30,398 nt of DNA from positions 1 to 30,398 of IMG/VR virus record IMGVR_UViG_3300021961_008390. The stretch is one strand, 5' to 3'. Every line of letters begins with the position of its first letter. Within the stretch, counting starts at the first letter, position 1. Source of the DNA: a virus. Shown here one piece after another: positions 18,545 to 26,739 of this stretch. Both the position numbers and the translations under genes were made by a program. The notes under the pieces are model-generated. The model worked only from the letters and a program-made list of their open reading frames with translations. It was not told where the DNA came from and did not search any database.

Positions 18545-19209
18545 TTTACATTATAGGAGATAGTCACGTATCAGTTTTTTCAGGCACAGATACGACCTAC
18601 GAAGGATTACGCCATATTCAACCAGAATTTGGAACATGCTATACCCTAAGCCAGGGACAGTTAAAACAGCATATTAACAGGTTTGAGCAAAGAATACCTC
18701 ATTTTTGTCCAATAAAGATAGGTTCAAACACAGCATATAACTCACTAAATAAACTCCCTAGAATCGAACAAGCTATTTTAGAGTACGGCGTTAAAGAAGG
18801 TGACTATGTTTTTTTAAGCTTTGGAGAAATAGATATACGTAACCATATAGGATTTCATACTAACGACATTGAACAGGGTATAATAGAATGTGTAGACCGT
18901 TATATGCAAACAATATTAAGCTTAAAAGGTAGGGACTTTAAGGTAGGGGTGTATGCTCCGCCTGCATCTTCTGTTGGAGGGACTACCGTAGATTATGGGG
19001 ATGTTATCTTAAGAAATAAAATGACACTTCAATTTAGTACACACCTAAAAAAATTATGTATAGAAAATAATATTATTTTTAAAGACATAGCACCATTATT
19101 AATACTCCCAGATGGAACTACTGATGAAAGTTTTATTATGGACGATATACACCTAGCACAGAAAGCTATGCCACTTTTACTACGAGAGTTTGCAGATATT
19201 ATTACGTAG
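18541..19209 (+). CDS. SGNH/GDSL-family hydrolase or acetyl-esterase
   Basis: A 222-residue protein with the SGNH catalytic signatures: block I 'IIGDSHV' with nucleophile Ser8, block III 'SFGEIDIRNH' (93-102), and block V 'DDIH' at 201-204 with Asp201 and His204. The family removes acetyl or other acyl groups from sugars, or transfers them. It lies one gene from the acyltransferase at 17197, so the pair may set the acetylation state of the glycan. No signal peptide is seen, so it acts in the cytoplasm. Starts by a 4-base overlap with the preceding gene. Confidence 0.85.
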   Translation: MIYIIGDSHVSVFSGTDTTYEGLRHIQPEFGTCYTLSQGQLKQHINRFEQRIPHFCPIKIGSNTAYNSLNKLPRIEQAILEYGVKEGDYVFLSFGEIDIRNHIGFHTNDIEQGIIECVDRYMQTILSLKGRDFKVGVYAPPASSVGGTTVDYGDVILRNKMTLQFSTHLKKLCIENNIIFKDIAPLLILPDGTTDESFIMDDIHLAQKAMPLLLREFADIIT

Positions 19210-19228: not shown

Positions 19229-19858
19229 ATGAAATGTATATTAATACAAGCCAACGGTAACAATATCCGATTAGGTAAATATTTTAGTCAACCTAAGTAT
19301 GAATTATTTTATAAAGGTAAAAGGATAGTTGATACAATAATAGAAAATGCAACTAACTGTGCCGACAAGGTATTTGTTGCAGTTAGGGGAGGTGTTGAGA
19401 TTAAATTTGATAATTCAAAAGTAACACTAATACCGTGTAAACAAACAAACAATAGGTTAGATACATTAAAACAATGCTTCCCATACCTACAAGAATACTC
19501 CTCAGTAGTAATACACGACTGTGATACTATTATTGAATCCGATGTATTATATAAATTAGAGAGAGATAGTATAGCAATAACTAATTATAAATTAGATGGA
19601 TTAAAGTATGGTTTTGTTGGATTAGATCATAATTTTAACTATATTAATGGTAATGAGAAAGAGAAAGAAACAGGTCACATTACAGTAGGAGCGTATAGTG
19701 TGGTTGTAGATTCCTTTTGTAAGTATTTAGAAAAAGCAACAGAAGAGAGTTTACTAACGTACTATAACCAGGTTAAAAATGTTAATGTTGTTTATTCAAA
19801 AAATCATACAAATTTAGGAGATATTAATTCATATATTGATAATTTATGGTTGTTGTAG
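19229..19858 (+). CDS. Nucleotidyltransferase-like protein (GT-A fold)
   Basis: A 209-residue protein from ATG 19229; an upstream TTG at 19190 would overlap the previous gene and adds 13 unrelated residues, so I reject it. 'MKCILIQANGNNIRLGKYF' followed by 'QPKYELFYKGKRIVDTII' mirrors the start of sugar-1-phosphate nucleotidyltransferases ('G.G.R......PK.L....g.pi....'), and 'SVVIHDCDTII' the metal-binding Asp strand. 'TGHITVGAYSVVVDSF' fits the later substrate strand. It probably activates a sugar or alcohol phosphate with CTP or GTP. It overlaps the phosphatase-kinase gene by 13 bases, which suggests they share a pathway. Confidence 0.7.
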   Translation: MKCILIQANGNNIRLGKYFSQPKYELFYKGKRIVDTIIENATNCADKVFVAVRGGVEIKFDNSKVTLIPCKQTNNRLDTLKQCFPYLQEYSSVVIHDCDTIIESDVLYKLERDSIAITNYKLDGLKYGFVGLDHNFNYINGNEKEKETGHITVGAYSVVVDSFCKYLEKATEESLLTYYNQVKNVNVVYSKNHTNLGDINSYIDNLWLL

Positions 19859-20835
19859 TAGATTTTGACGGCACGTTAGCCCTAGGGGATACGGGAGATA
19901 TTAGTACTATGTACTTAAATCGAAAACTAGCTTCCTTAGTTAATAAAATGTACGATGATGGAAATACAATAAAAGTAGTAACTGCTAGGGGATCTAAGTC
20001 ATGTTCAACCATTAGTCAACGAGAAGAAAAGTATAAAGATATTGTAACTAATTGGCTACATACCAATGGAGTTAAGTTTCATGAACTCTCTTTTAGTAAG
20101 GAGTACGGAGATGCGTACATAGACGATAGGGCATATAATATAGACAACACTATCTTTTATGAAAAGCTAGATTCAAAATTTACAACTAATAAAGTTCGAC
20201 GAATAAATAATTGTGTCGTAAAAGTAACTGCGAATAGTAGTAACGAAGTAGCTTGGTATAACAAAGCTTTAGAAATTGAACTAGACACCCCAGGAGTTTT
20301 GAGTTATGATAAAAATACAATAGCAACTAGGTATGTAGAAGGAACTTATTGTAGTAATGTATCCCTAGTACTAGACACCTTGTCTAAATTTAAGAATACC
20401 CCACCAACAAATAAAGCTAATTTTAATACATATATTGAGAGGATTAAAAATCATTTAGAAAATAATATACTTATACAGAATAAAGATAAACTACTCACAC
20501 TGCTAGGTACGATTAACCCACCAAATACATTTAACCATGGGGACTTCTCAGTACATAATCAAATAGAGAGTAACGGTAAGTTATACCTAATAGATCCAAT
20601 ATACTCGGAAGATATATACCAATCTTACGTACTAGATGCTGCTAAACATCTATATAGCGTACTGTATTATACTTTAGATTCAGATTTTTTTAATACATGT
20701 TATGATCAGTATACGTATAAACTAGGTATTAAAAAAAATGAATTAGATATACTAATTGCGTGTGAAGCTGTCAGAGTATGTAACCGTAAAAAACAGTTAA
20801 CAGATATTACTAATAACTTAATAGATGCACTATGA
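19846..20835 (+). CDS. Fusion of a HAD phosphatase and an APH-type kinase
   Basis: A 329-residue two-domain protein. Residues 1-110 are a HAD phosphatase: 'VVDFDGTLA' with Asp6 and Asp8, 'VVTARGS' (motif II, Thr46), Lys85, and 'YIDDRA' (Asp93, Asp94). Residues about 118-329 resemble an aminoglycoside phosphotransferase/choline kinase fold: 'NNCVVKVTA' (ATP-binding Lys126), catalytic 'FNHGDFSVHNQ' (His231, Asp233, Asn238) and the metal-binding 'LIDP' (Asp250). With the nucleotidyltransferase-like gene just upstream this gives kinase, phosphatase and nucleotide-transfer activities side by side, as in heptose or phosphocholine activation routes. Substrate unknown. Ends with an ATGA overlap into 20832. 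Confidence 0.8.
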   Translation: MVVVVDFDGTLALGDTGDISTMYLNRKLASLVNKMYDDGNTIKVVTARGSKSCSTISQREEKYKDIVTNWLHTNGVKFHELSFSKEYGDAYIDDRAYNIDNTIFYEKLDSKFTTNKVRRINNCVVKVTANSSNEVAWYNKALEIELDTPGVLSYDKNTIATRYVEGTYCSNVSLVLDTLSKFKNTPPTNKANFNTYIERIKNHLENNILIQNKDKLLTLLGTINPPNTFNHGDFSVHNQIESNGKLYLIDPIYSEDIYQSYVLDAAKHLYSVLYYTLDSDFFNTCYDQYTYKLGIKKNELDILIACEAVRVCNRKKQLTDITNNLIDAL

Positions 20836-21506
20836 AGACAATGATAGTAATACCGTGTAGGAACACAGGTGAAAAACATATAGTAAACTGCATCAAGAGT
20901 ATTAGAGAATCAGGAAATGAAGACCTAATCTGCGTAGTTGATAGTAACTCTCCAGATAAGACATACTTTACCGAAATTCAACAATATGAAGTACTTATTG
21001 AAGATATTAATAATACACACCATATTGATGGAGCAATTTGGCACTGTTATGAAAAGTATGTCGATGTTGAATTTTTTTATATAATACACGATAGTATGGT
21101 TGTTAATAAAAAACTCACTCCAATAACTAAAAACGATCTTACAGTGTTTAGCTACTTCGAAGGACTACCCTTTGATTCAGATACACAATACGTCTACAGT
21201 ATGTCTAAAATAGCGGAGACAGGTTTAGATTTAACAAATGTAAAATTGAATACACTAGCAGGACTATTTGGGACTACACTATACTGTAAAAGAAAGATTT
21301 TAGATGATTTGAAGCAACTGGGATTAAATAAGATACTACCAACAAATAAATTAGAAGCTCAAGCTAGTGAAAGAATTTGGGGAATATTTTTGCATAAGTT
21401 AGGATTTGATATTAGATTAAATACATTAAGGGAGTTTATTAACCAGAATACTGAGTTTACAGATAAGACAGACTATATAACAAAGATCTTCGTAGGAAGA
21501 GGTTAA
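20832..21506 (+). CDS. GT-A-like glycosyltransferase
   Basis: A 224-residue protein starting 'MKTMIVIPCRNTGEKHIVNCIKSIRESGNEDLICVVDSNSPDKT', the layout of GT-A enzymes where 'VVDSNSPD' is the first nucleotide-binding strand. 'FYIIHDSMVV' (about 81-90) holds a possible metal-binding Asp in the position of the DxD. 'ASERIWGIFLHKLGF' resembles the catalytic 'ED/ER..w...' stretch. No membrane helices. It has very high A/T content and many ATA and TTA codons. Donor and acceptor unknown. Confidence 0.6.
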   Translation: MKTMIVIPCRNTGEKHIVNCIKSIRESGNEDLICVVDSNSPDKTYFTEIQQYEVLIEDINNTHHIDGAIWHCYEKYVDVEFFYIIHDSMVVNKKLTPITKNDLTVFSYFEGLPFDSDTQYVYSMSKIAETGLDLTNVKLNTLAGLFGTTLYCKRKILDDLKQLGLNKILPTNKLEAQASERIWGIFLHKLGFDIRLNTLREFINQNTEFTDKTDYITKIFVGRG

Positions 21507-21527: not shown

Positions 21528-22334
21528 ATGAATAGAACAAAAATTAACATGATAGGCGGAGGATTCCAGCATAGTGTCTCTACCAATGATATGGATCCAA
21601 AGTTTATTGAATGGGTTAAAGATAGGTCAGCACAAATCTCAATACATATTGACGATGGTTTATTTATAGAAATAGATCCAATAACAAAGAACTTTGGCTG
21701 GTTATGTGAATCAAAAACAATAGCACCACAGTATTATAAATGGTGTAGAGAAAATATTACAGCATTAAAAGCTAACTTTATAAAAGTCTTTACACATGAT
21801 GCCGAATTAGCAGAGCTATCTGATATCTTTCAACTTACACAATGTAGTGCTAAATCTTATTTTGCTCATGGAGAGGTATATCCAAAAACTAAGCTAGTTT
21901 CAATGATAGCATCAAATAAAATAATGTGTGCAGAACATGTACTAAGGCAAGAGGTAGTTCAAAAGTTTTCAAAAGAATGTGATCATTTTGGTAGAGGATA
22001 TACGCCGTTAGAAAATAAAGAAGATGGATTAAAAGATTACTGCTTTTCAATTGTAATGGAAAATGCAACATATCCAAACATGTTTACAGAGAAAATAACT
22101 GATTGCTTTATGACAGGTACAATTCCAATTTATTACGGTATTGATAATATTGGAGATTATTTTGATACTGAGGGAATTATAATGTTACATGATAGTTTTG
22201 AAATTAAAGATCTTTCCTTTGAATTATACCAATCAAAAATAGAAGCGGTTAGAAAAAATTTACAACTAGCCATTGACCTGTTGACAGCAGAAGATTACAT
22301 ATACAAAAACTTTATACAGACTTATGAATTTTAA
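21528..22334 (+). CDS. GT10-type fucosyltransferase (alpha-1,3/4-like)
   Basis: A 268-residue protein whose C-terminal half carries the GT10 hallmark 'YCFSIVMENATYPNMFTEKITDCFMTGTIPIYYG' (171-204): the donor-binding 'F...MEN', the 'TEK' and the closing Gly-x-x-Pro turn. 'KLVSMIASNK' (122-131) matches the 'SNC/SNK' helix before it. GT10 enzymes transfer L-fucose from GDP-fucose through alpha-1,3 or 1,4 bonds. The last 11 bases overlap the compact aminotransferase gene. Three or four fucosyltransferase-like genes in one island suggest a heavily fucosylated product or relatives of GDP-fucose as donors. Confidence 0.85.
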   Translation: MNRTKINMIGGGFQHSVSTNDMDPKFIEWVKDRSAQISIHIDDGLFIEIDPITKNFGWLCESKTIAPQYYKWCRENITALKANFIKVFTHDAELAELSDIFQLTQCSAKSYFAHGEVYPKTKLVSMIASNKIMCAEHVLRQEVVQKFSKECDHFGRGYTPLENKEDGLKDYCFSIVMENATYPNMFTEKITDCFMTGTIPIYYGIDNIGDYFDTEGIIMLHDSFEIKDLSFELYQSKIEAVRKNLQLAIDLLTAEDYIYKNFIQTYEF

Positions 22335-22938
22335 CACAGTAACAGAATTTGAAAATCAGGTAGCACAGTTCTTCGGAGCACCCTACGCTGTAGCAGTAGA
22401 TGCTTGTACCCACGGGGTAGAGTTGTCACTACGGTACACTAATGCAAATAAAATAAGTGTACCAAAGAATACTTATTTGTCTATTCCATTTTTATTTCGT
22501 AAATTAAATATAGAATTAGAATGGAGAGAGGAAGATTGGAAGGATTATTATTATGTAACAGATACAGTAATAGACGCAGCAGTACTTTGGAAAAGAGGTA
22601 GTTATGTACCGGGTACGTTTATGAGCTTATCCTTTCAGTACCAAAAACATTTAAGTCTAGGAAGAGGAGGAATGATCTTAACAGACAATAAAGAAGCAGC
22701 TATTCAACTAAAGAAGATGTCTTATGATGGAAGGCTTCCAAATATTCCTTGGAGAGATCAGAACATTGATACAGTAGGGTACCATTATTATATGACACCT
22801 GAAACAGCTCAACTAGGATTAGATAAACTCCCAGCAGCAATAGAGACAACACCAAGACAGTGGACAGTAAATGACTGGCCAGATTTAACACAGATGACGG
22901 TCTTTTCACAACTAGACCCTTATTTACAAACAAGATAA
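22324..22938 (+). CDS. Compact DegT/DnrJ/EryC1/StrS aminotransferase
   Basis: A 204-residue member of the sugar aminotransferase family, about half the usual 370-400. It has the start 'FENQVAQFFGAPYAVAVDACTHGVELSL', then a shortened middle, and the PLP-binding Lys108 in 'SFQYQKHLSLGRGGMILTD', followed by 'MSYDGR' and 'GYHYYMTPETAQLGLDKL', the usual late active-site loop. So the active-site residues remain but the region between the substrate loop and Lys, and the whole C-terminal small domain, are reduced. It would place an amino group on a keto-sugar such as a 4-keto-6-deoxy product. No frameshift is visible; the end is a clean stop, so it is likely a natural short form. Confidence 0.82.
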   Translation: MNFNTVTEFENQVAQFFGAPYAVAVDACTHGVELSLRYTNANKISVPKNTYLSIPFLFRKLNIELEWREEDWKDYYYVTDTVIDAAVLWKRGSYVPGTFMSLSFQYQKHLSLGRGGMILTDNKEAAIQLKKMSYDGRLPNIPWRDQNIDTVGYHYYMTPETAQLGLDKLPAAIETTPRQWTVNDWPDLTQMTVFSQLDPYLQTR

Positions 22939-24700: not shown

Positions 24701-25650
24701 AAGTAGTCTACGTAACAGGTTGTTTAGGGTTCATAGGATCTTATGTAACAAGAGCATGTCTTAGTAAAGGATGGTATGTAAAGGGAGTTGATAAGGGAAC
24801 ATATGCAGCTAATAAAACTCTACTAAAAGAATTTAAAGAGTACAGTACTTTTTCATTTGTTGATTGTGATATAAATGATTTAAAGTTTCTATACGATTGT
24901 GATTATATAATTAATACAGCAGCCGAAACTCACGTAGGTAATTCAATTGCTAATTCAGATGAGTTTGTATCTTCAAATGTAAACGGAGTACACAACTTAC
25001 TAGAGTTAATTAAGAATCACAGGGGAGAGCATTCAGCAAAACCTGTACTACTCCACTTTAGTACAGATGAAGTGTATGGTGACATTGCCGAAGGAGAGCA
25101 TATCGAAACAGATTTACTTAAACCTTCCAATCCATACTCAGCTACAAAAGCAGCAGCTGATATGTTAGTAACAGCATGGGGCAGAACATATAACCTTCCA
25201 TATGTAATAGTTAGGCCAACTAACAACTACGGAGCAGGTCAGTACACGGAGAAGCTAATTCCTAAGGCATTGAAGTACCTAAAACTGGGTAAAAAGATTC
25301 CACTGCACAATAACGGCACTCCAATTAGAACTTGGCTACATGCTCAGGATACAGCCAATGCTGTTGTAAAGATAATCGAATCAGGAGTACAGAATGAGAT
25401 ATTTAATATCTGTGGAGGATTTGAGCAAAGTAATTTGGAAACCATCAAAAAAGTTCTTACATTGTACAATAAGGATCAGGTTTATATATTAGAAGACTTT
25501 GTAGATTTCTCATATGATAGACAAGGGCAGGATGTTCGATATGCTTTGAATGATGATAAATTAAGGGCATTAGGATGGAAGCCCCAAATAAACTTTGATA
25601 CTGAATTAAAGTATATTGTAGAATACTATAGAGAGAAGTTTATATGGTAG
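24697..25650 (+). CDS. RmlB-like NDP-sugar 4,6-dehydratase
   Basis: A 317-residue extended SDR. NAD-binding 'VTGCLGFIGSYV', 'INTAAETHVGNSI', 'HFSTDEVYGDI' (120-130; Asp124 and Glu125 are the dehydratase acid/base pair), 'NPYSATKAAAD' with Tyr147-x3-Lys151, and 'RPTNNYGAGQYTEKLIP'. These match dTDP-glucose 4,6-dehydratase (RmlB) closely, so a 4-keto-6-deoxy nucleotide sugar is the probable product. The nucleotide cannot be told: dTDP, UDP or CDP are all possible, and a CDP product would be the classical substrate of the RfbH-like enzyme at 12164. Starts with GTG overlapping the preceding stop by four bases. Confidence 0.9.
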   Translation: MKVVYVTGCLGFIGSYVTRACLSKGWYVKGVDKGTYAANKTLLKEFKEYSTFSFVDCDINDLKFLYDCDYIINTAAETHVGNSIANSDEFVSSNVNGVHNLLELIKNHRGEHSAKPVLLHFSTDEVYGDIAEGEHIETDLLKPSNPYSATKAAADMLVTAWGRTYNLPYVIVRPTNNYGAGQYTEKLIPKALKYLKLGKKIPLHNNGTPIRTWLHAQDTANAVVKIIESGVQNEIFNICGGFEQSNLETIKKVLTLYNKDQVYILEDFVDFSYDRQGQDVRYALNDDKLRALGWKPQINFDTELKYIVEYYREKFIW

Positions 25651-26261
25651 AATTAAAAAAGAGAATAGCTGAAATAGCCTATATACATAAGCTAGGACAT
25701 TTAGGAAGCTACTTATCGAGTGTAGGTATTGTTGATGAGATCTTTTCTAAAATGAATAAAGACGATATCTTTATACTATCCTCAGGTCATGCATCCTTAG
25801 CAATGTACGTATGCCTGGAGAAGTATCATGGAATAAATGCTGAGGAGTTGTTTATCAAACATGGAGGACATCCTCATAGGGATGAAGAGAATAAGATATA
25901 CTGCTCAACAGGAAGTCTAGGATTAGGATTGACAATTGCTCTAGGAAGAGCAGTAGCTAATCCAAAGAGAAAGGTTTGGGTATTGATAAGCGATGGTGAA
26001 GCAGCTGAAGGGAGTATTTGGGAGGCTCTTAAGACTATTGTAGAAGAAAAGATTGATAACATAGAAGTATTTGTTAACATAAACGGATTATGTGCATATA
26101 AAGAAGTTGATCAAGATTACATCTCATCTAGGTTAAAAGCATTCCTACCTACAATTAATCTAAGATATACTACGGTAGAGCAATACCCTTTCTTAAAAGG
26201 ACTAAATGCACACTACCATGTAATGAATGAAGACAATTATAAACAGGTTTTAGAATCTTAA
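25644..26261 (+). CDS. Transketolase-like subunit, thiamine diphosphate-binding domain
   Basis: A 205-residue protein matching the N-terminal third of transketolase: 'HLGSYLSSVGIVDEI' (His19), 'FILSSGHASLAMY' (His49), 'KHGGHPHRDEE', 'STGSLGLGLTIALGRAVA' and the ThDP/metal motif 'SDGEAAEGSIWEALKTIVEEKIDNIEVFVNINGL' (Asp117). The pyrimidine-binding half is on the next gene one base later. Such split transketolases are known in bacteria and archaea; in sugar clusters they may transfer a two-carbon unit to make branched sugars or supply precursors. Overlaps the RmlB-like gene by seven bases. Substrate unknown. Confidence 0.88.
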   Translation: MVELKKRIAEIAYIHKLGHLGSYLSSVGIVDEIFSKMNKDDIFILSSGHASLAMYVCLEKYHGINAEELFIKHGGHPHRDEENKIYCSTGSLGLGLTIALGRAVANPKRKVWVLISDGEAAEGSIWEALKTIVEEKIDNIEVFVNINGLCAYKEVDQDYISSRLKAFLPTINLRYTTVEQYPFLKGLNAHYHVMNEDNYKQVLES

Positions 26262-26262
26262 T

Positions 26263-26739
26263 ATGAGAAGAACGTTTGCAAGCTTGTTACACCAAGCAAT
26301 GGAACATAATCAAGACATACACTTAGTAACAGGTGATTTAGGATATGGACTCTGGGACGATGTAAGAGATACTTACCCCGATCGCTTTCATAATGTAGGT
26401 TCTTCCGAAATGGTTATGATGGGAATGGCTATTGGATTGGCAATGGAAGGAAAGATTCCTTTTGTATACTCTATTACTCCTTTTGCAATCTATAGGCCTT
26501 TTGAAATGATTAGGAATTATTTAGATTATGAAAAAATTCCTGTAAACATTATTGGAGGAGGTAGAGATAAGGATTATGGATATTTAGGATTCTCTCACTG
26601 GTCTCATGACGATAAAAGAATTATGGGAGTATTTGATAATATCAAAACATATCATCCAGAAACAGATGAAGAGTTAACAGACTTCTTTAAGTATACATTA
26701 CAGAAGAGATCTCCAATCTATATTAATTTAAAGCGATGA
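26263..26739 (+). CDS. Transketolase-like subunit, pyrimidine-binding domain
   Basis: A 158-residue partner of the preceding gene: 'HLVTGDLGYG', 'FHNVGSSEMVMMGMAIGLAMEGKIPFVYSITPFAIYRPFEMIRN' with the catalytic Glu49 that activates thiamine diphosphate, and 'IIGGGRDKDYGYLGFSHWSHDDKRIM'. It ends with 'SPIYINLKR' at the end of the Pyr domain; the C-terminal transketolase domain (about 130 residues) is missing. Two-gene split enzymes usually keep it on the second subunit, so this is a minimal form. The next gene begins within the ATGA overlap. Confidence 0.88.
   Translation: MRRTFASLLHQAMEHNQDIHLVTGDLGYGLWDDVRDTYPDRFHNVGSSEMVMMGMAIGLAMEGKIPFVYSITPFAIYRPFEMIRNYLDYEKIPVNIIGGGRDKDYGYLGFSHWSHDDKRIMGVFDNIKTYHPETDEELTDFFKYTLQKRSPIYINLKR

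Follow-up and report, generated by a model that had tools for sequence, protein, structure and literature searches.

A fused HAD phosphatase-kinase and an overlapping nucleotidyltransferase as a probable sugar-activation route in a viral glycan cluster

Two overlapping genes of a bacterial virus probably encode a complete route from a sugar phosphate through the free sugar and the sugar-1-phosphate to an NDP-sugar, without a phosphomutase, and the product would be used by one of the operon's glycosyltransferases, the adjoining GT2 enzyme being the probable one. In the window, by which we mean the whole virus record of 30,398 bases, a glycan-synthesis cluster (∼8322-28770) comes after a family A DNA polymerase gene and a GroES/GroEL pair, and the two overlapping genes lie inside this cluster. 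An earlier sequence-only reading had placed at 19229-20835 a nucleotidyltransferase-like gene, overlapped over 13 bases by the gene of a 329-residue protein, and these coordinates are right. The features are as follows.

19229-19858, plus strand: nucleotidyltransferase (NT) gene, ATG start at 19229, MobA/RmlA fold, 209 aa, predicted maker of the NDP-sugar.
19846-20835, plus strand: HAD-APH fusion gene, 329 aa, HAD phosphatase joined to a complete APH/choline-kinase-fold kinase.
19846-20199, plus strand: HAD phosphatase domain, fusion residues 1-118.
20200-20835, plus strand: APH/choline-kinase-fold kinase domain, fusion residues 119-329, stop codon included.
19846-19858, plus strand: 13-base overlap of the NT and fusion genes, the same in loci L001, L002, L003 and L005.
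20832-21506, plus strand: GT2 glycosyltransferase gene (Glycos_transf_2, 2.8e-5), overlapping the fusion gene by 4 bases.

A longer NT with a TTG start at 19190 is possible, yet the relatives begin at the same ATG. The GT2 gene is kept beside the fusion in L001, L002, L003 and L005 (69-86% identity) and is absent after it in L004, L006 and L019. NT, fusion and GT2 are probably translated as a coupled unit, and GT2 is a candidate for the enzyme that uses the NDP-sugar.

The N-terminal half of the fusion has the features that define the HAD superfamily, namely the DxD nucleophile motif (DxDGT, with D6 and D8), the motif II Thr/Ser (T46), the motif III Lys (K85) and the DD of motif IV (D93/D94). 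In an alignment of 49 homologues D6, D8, T10, R48, K85, Y91, D93 and D94 are invariant and T46 is at least 90% conserved, which bears out the earlier assignment of a HAD phosphatase from DxDGT and Asp93/Asp94. As a single sequence this half matches HAD_PNKP (3e-4, the best Pfam match), EcbF-BcbF (2e-4) and phrog_1238 (4e-20), as well as the PHROGs polynucleotide kinase families (4e-7); it scores 21.1 bits with the model of the EcbF-BcbF capsule phosphatase (TIGR01689) and so stays below the curated cut-off of 162 bits. The family profile finds the solved structures 1xpj (3e-31) and 9iqw (5e-22). HAD phosphatases of this same family carry the label "phosphoheptose isomerase" in phrog_1238 and in phage records that include L178:5709-6095 (RB69 p051), L011 and L199; the name seems to have been propagated in error.

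Scanned as a single sequence, the C-terminal half matched only RIO1 (0.016) and Bud32 (0.003), too weakly to settle what it is. In the alignment of the 49 homologues H231, G232, D233, N238, D250, D264, K267 and S271 are invariant and K126 and E134 are at least 90% conserved. The hallmarks of the APH/choline-kinase superfamily are thus all present: the Lys/Glu pair (K126, E134), HGDxxxxN (231-238), a second metal-binding Asp (D250) and a bilobal kinase fold. The last is seen in the AlphaFold model of the fusion (pLDDT 92, pTM 0.83), with which Foldseek retrieves 3dxq, of the choline/ethanolamine kinase family, as the first match, then the fructosamine-3-kinase-like 3jr1 and APH(3')-IIIa (1j7i), at probability 1.00. 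The APH-like domain proposed earlier from HGDxxxxN and Asp250 therefore stands. Two findings had been named in advance as speaking against it, a C-terminal half lacking a kinase fold and the loss of ATP-binding residues across homologues; structure prediction and Foldseek return a kinase fold, and the residues are invariant or kept in at least 90% (n = 49). A stand-alone homologue of the kinase is gp12 of S-CBWM1 (1e-13). At E up to 1 the choline kinase family PF01633 does not match the window protein; its match to one relative (L009) is weak. A motif that reads IDP in window-type kinases reads IDxRG in the single-chain relatives described below, and on this basis substrates may differ within the family. 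A role as an antibiotic-resistance phosphotransferase was set aside, since genes for HAD and nucleotidyltransferase accompany this domain in every case.

For the NT the only Pfam match, NTP_transf_3 (9.5e-4), is under the cut-off. Its AlphaFold model (pLDDT 86) leads Foldseek to 4evw, GlmU, PntC-AEPT and HddC (5xhw), and G10, R14, K23, D99, E143 and K144 are invariant in the family. The family profile, which is dominated by rows of single-chain relatives, is best against sugar-1-phosphate enzymes (4evw, HddC, ST0452, GlmU, mannose-1-phosphate guanylyltransferase) and weaker on IspD and inositol-phosphate enzymes. Among close relatives dN is ∼0.07-0.25 while dS runs from ∼0.8 to saturation for HAD, APH and NT alike, so each of the three is under purifying selection.

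A search for the same domain fusion had been proposed, and it found relatives both fused and split. With the HAD-APH protein as the first query, a tri-fusion (NT-HAD-APH in one chain) as the next, and arrangements read with profiles built in the analysis, several layouts were seen. An NT gene followed by HAD-APH occurs in the window, L001-L005 and L019. Tri-fusions of ∼600-660 residues contribute 36 distinct sequences to the tree, two of them bacterial (L064, Marinimicrobia; L065, Prochlorococcus). In L009, L010, L020-L024 and L136-L138 HAD-APH is followed by a HIGH-type (RfaE/TagD-type) nucleotidyltransferase, whose fold is unrelated to that of NT. A HAD gene next to an NT-APH fusion is found in L039-L046, L072 and others, and sets of separate genes, in orders including NT, APH, HAD and APH, HAD, NT, are found in L143-L159, RB69 and S-CBWM1. 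The best match of the fusion model in the viral structure library, a 635-aa protein of the giant virus Indivirus ILV1 named as a nucleotidyl transferase domain protein (BFVD A0A1V0SE67), is probably another tri-fusion.

A nucleotidyltransferase immediately adjoins HAD-APH in all 14 two-domain loci in which the relevant flank is visible (six of the MobA/RmlA fold, eight of the HIGH fold; L006, which starts 33 bases from a contig end, was left out). This linkage is not built in, because most HAD-APH loci came from queries without a nucleotidyltransferase; for the tri-fusions, found with alignment A3, it is partly built in by the query. Genome contigs gave no match to the window protein and 33 loci to the tri-fusion alignment, two of these being the bacterial tri-fusions. 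A search across 274 genomes of the class, centred on a gammaproteobacterial MAG, yielded no tri-fusion and mainly matched nucleotidyltransferases. A family of ∼250-aa proteins with a weak DUF7796 match (as L098:7884-8639) is the immediate neighbour in 13 of the 36 tri-fusion loci, and may supply the enzyme that transfers the activated sugar.

That phosphatase, kinase and nucleotidyltransferase would form one activation route feeding a glycan, the core idea of the sequence-only reading, is well supported by the shuffling of the domains and by the exchange of the nucleotidyltransferase for one of unrelated fold. The HAD half would remove the terminal phosphate from a sugar phosphate of host or phage metabolism, the APH-fold half of the same chain would phosphorylate the freed sugar at the anomeric position, and the neighbouring NT would couple the sugar-1-phosphate to a nucleotide. 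One of the operon's glycosyltransferases, the overlapping GT2 being the probable one, would then use the NDP-sugar to decorate the glycan. The fusion would not run a futile cycle, because its kinase and phosphatase act at different positions; as a pair they would stand in for a phosphomutase. An order with the phosphatase first is somewhat favoured over a heptose-like one with the kinase first. Cj1435, whose substrate is a serinol-phosphate amide (PMC13276843), shows that HADs near TIGR01689 can also act after transfer, and here too the HAD step may come later than activation. In the literature searched we found assays of no enzyme of this set.

Known systems offer several comparisons. GDP- and ADP-heptose activation (HddA or HldE, GmhB, HddC) employs a kinase at C1, a phosphatase at C7 and a nucleotidyltransferase, and the NT fold is close to HddC (5xhw). 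The kinases there are, however, of GHMP or PfkB type, and the GDP-heptose pathway as such was set aside since the kinase half has the APH/choline-kinase fold and not that of GHMP kinases. In phosphocholine activation LicA, a kinase of the APH superfamily, is paired with the MobA-like nucleotidyltransferase LicC. We know of no HAD in that route, whereas one is present in the window, where the kinase moreover has no specific choline-kinase family match. Choline as proposed earlier was set aside, given the lack of a PF01633 match and nucleotidyltransferases that lean to sugars.

In Pseudomonas, a HAD phosphatase, an anomeric kinase and a nucleotidyltransferase (MupP, AmgK and MurU) convert MurNAc-6-phosphate to UDP-MurNAc in series (PMC5371407). 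The same three types of protein, which there lead from sugar phosphate to NDP-sugar, are encoded in the window, with predicted activities. In contrast to the window, the Pseudomonas enzymes serve bacterial MurNAc recycling and their HAD is of another subfamily (HAD_2), while the MurU model NF045761 does not match the window NT at E up to 1.

The other comparison is with phages that modify their DNA. The DNA of RB69 carries arabinose, and p052 and p053 together with p055 were proposed to make UDP-arabinose (PMC6024577); p051 presumably takes part (PMC8056088). As late as 2026 the route and donor source of RB69-type arabinose were still called uncharacterised (PMC13390438). The genes are adjacent and comprise an arabinose-5-phosphate isomerase (p055), an NT (p053), an APH kinase (p052) and a HAD (p051). 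The proposal fits the route suggested here with p051 as its phosphatase, the UDP-arabinose step of RB69 being itself putative. The family profile matches p051 at 2e-24 and the window-type profile at 3e-8. For p052 the wide family profile gives 7e-33 and Foldseek 4e-6, and the window-type kinase profile alone gives no match; nor does the window-type NT profile find p053. The link to the RB69 kinase and NT hence runs through tri-fusion intermediates. What RB69 and its Mosigvirus kin share with the window is a HAD, an APH-fold kinase and an NTP-transferase encoded together in a phage. RB69, however, has the three as separate annotated genes, adds the isomerase and targets cytosine in DNA, whereas the window has HAD and APH in one chain, surrounded by glycan genes. 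With p055 as the query no SIS protein was found in the window or in the loci; the host, or another region of the phage genome, would have to supply the sugar phosphate. Yersinia phage TG1 has NT and APH in one ORF. Thanatos, a phage with pentose-modified cytosine, encodes TH1_060, a homologue of RB69 ORF053_052 with a glycosyltransferase-like N-terminus and a phosphotransferase C-terminus (PMC12838424); we liken it to the fusion by description only, and it differs in its DNA-modification setting and in that no HAD fusion is described. The best precedents are MupP-AmgK-MurU and the suspected UDP-arabinose module of RB69, not the GHMP heptose route. It had been suggested that the pair could be a new path because the kinase of heptose activation is GHMP-type; the kinase here is indeed APH-type, but these two precedents exist beyond the GHMP heptose route.

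The group activated is most likely a sugar. The main alternative is an alcohol: the kinase would act on choline, ethanolamine, glycerol or another polyol, the NT would make a CDP-alcohol, and the HAD would remove a phosphate, either before the alcohol reaches the glycan or afterwards. The first Foldseek match, 3dxq, the presence of the LicA choline kinase (4r77) among the profile matches and the action of the Cj1435 phosphatase on a phosphorylated amino-alcohol amide in a capsule (PMC13276843) are consistent with it. The HIGH-type partners also match glycerol-3-phosphate cytidylyltransferase, yet the RfaE heptose-1-phosphate adenylyltransferase domain scores higher in all five tested, both matches being under their cut-offs. 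Against an alcohol also stand the missing choline-kinase family match and the fact that no serinol-route-like ligase was recognised in the cluster of the window. In addition, both nucleotidyltransferase types lean to sugar-1-phosphate enzymes, it is hard to see what a HAD would do in a choline route of LicA/LicC type, and relatives adjoin sugar-phosphate enzymes. Stand-alone HADs of the family lie next to apparent GmhA-type isomerases, HldE-like genes and class II aldolases (judged by eye from sequence beginnings only), and others are near annotated aldolase and sugar-kinase-like genes. We therefore consider the alcohol unlikely, and a sugar more probable than the choline-like or polyol group of the sequence-only reading. 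One candidate sugar would be a pentose such as arabinose, which is possible though rather doubtful. In S-SKS1 (L199:3574-7112) an NT fused to a DHBP synthase (RibB) domain is followed by an APH kinase, a HAD and a transaldolase, with similar sets in L143-L155. DHBP synthase consumes ribulose-5-phosphate. This suggests ribulose-5-phosphate or a C4 phosphate as a possible starting point for the activated sugar.

The destination of the sugar has to be weighed too, since the NDP-sugar could go to the bases of the phage's own DNA, as suspected for RB69, its place in a glycan cluster being incidental. The tree puts the window in a clade of seven rows (support 100/99) inside a 13-row clade with L009, L010, L020, L022, L023 and L174, which adjoin TAGT, C5-methylase or ThyA genes. 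Genes of the TET, TAGT, C5-methylase (DNMT) or ThyA families accompany these six, L019, L136 and the unfused S-CBWM1 set, and base-modification genes are present at all HAD-APH loci outside the group of the window except L138, whose contig is cut off at its start. Even L019, the deepest branch of the window clade, has ParB, TAGT-like and TET genes. In contrast, the window and relatives G280-G285 (∼300 kb of records in all, fragments) contain no match to TET, ThyA, TAGT or C5-methylase and do contain glycosyltransferases, the cluster around the fusion is full of glycan genes, and GT2 is kept next to the fusion in four relatives. Delivery to DNA is thus improbable for the window, and a glycan destination is favoured, as far as fragmentary records allow. 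The simplest reading of the tree would be a switch of use from DNA to glycan within the clade, the direction of which is putative. The glycan destination proposed earlier fits the window itself, but beyond its group the nearest relatives are found at DNA-modification loci. At one of the loci concerned, gp8 of S-CBWM1 (L008:2651-4087) bears the annotation putative SNF2 DNA repair protein, yet it resembles the TET/JBP proteins found at related loci (match at 1.7e-33).

Lastly, the HAD half could be a separate activity, in PNKP-like nucleic-acid end repair or in removal of phosphate from the finished glycan, with kinase and NT alone making up the route; the HAD_PNKP and PHROGs polynucleotide kinase matches and the work of Cj1435 on a growing glycan (PMC13276843) lend this some colour, but HAD is fused or adjacent to APH and NT in every arrangement, bacteria included (L064, L065, L072), a pattern that comes partly from the construction of the search, and its stand-alone relatives are near sugar-phosphate genes (by eye), so that we hold it to be very unlikely and set DNA-end repair aside.

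Under the preferred reading, activation of a sugar for a glycan, a broader picture can be drawn, to which we give slightly less than an even chance: a virus-centred kit, whose parts are freely fused, split and swapped for unrelated folds, would make an unusual NDP-sugar for DNA in some phages and for a glycan in others, the window included. If so, a single activation kit would tie phage DNA hypermodification to phage-encoded glycan decoration, and its sugar would be one that the usual phosphomutase routes do not make. One would predict that viruses apply this chemistry to DNA and glycans alike. The fusion and its relatives suggest a concrete pathway for the RB69-type arabinose donor, of which single-chain versions exist. 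HAD-APH or NT-HAD-APH could serve as a genetic tag for phages with unusual base or surface sugars, and the kit would account for many proteins labelled phosphoheptose isomerase, polynucleotide kinase or aminoglycoside phosphotransferase.

Some observations on gene surroundings may be added. In an Acidimicrobiia locus (L072:1-9831) the HAD gene overlaps the NT-APH fusion, and the opposite strand carries phosphonate-biosynthesis-like genes and a LicD-like gene (by eye). The glycan cluster of the window contains a split transketolase (25644-26739), with the TPP-binding and pyrimidine-binding parts in two adjacent genes, an arrangement conserved in L001. It also encodes a short DegT-family protein (22324-22938, 204 aa) that covers only part of the aminotransferase family; short forms of 199-240 aa are present in L001, L002 and L005 too.
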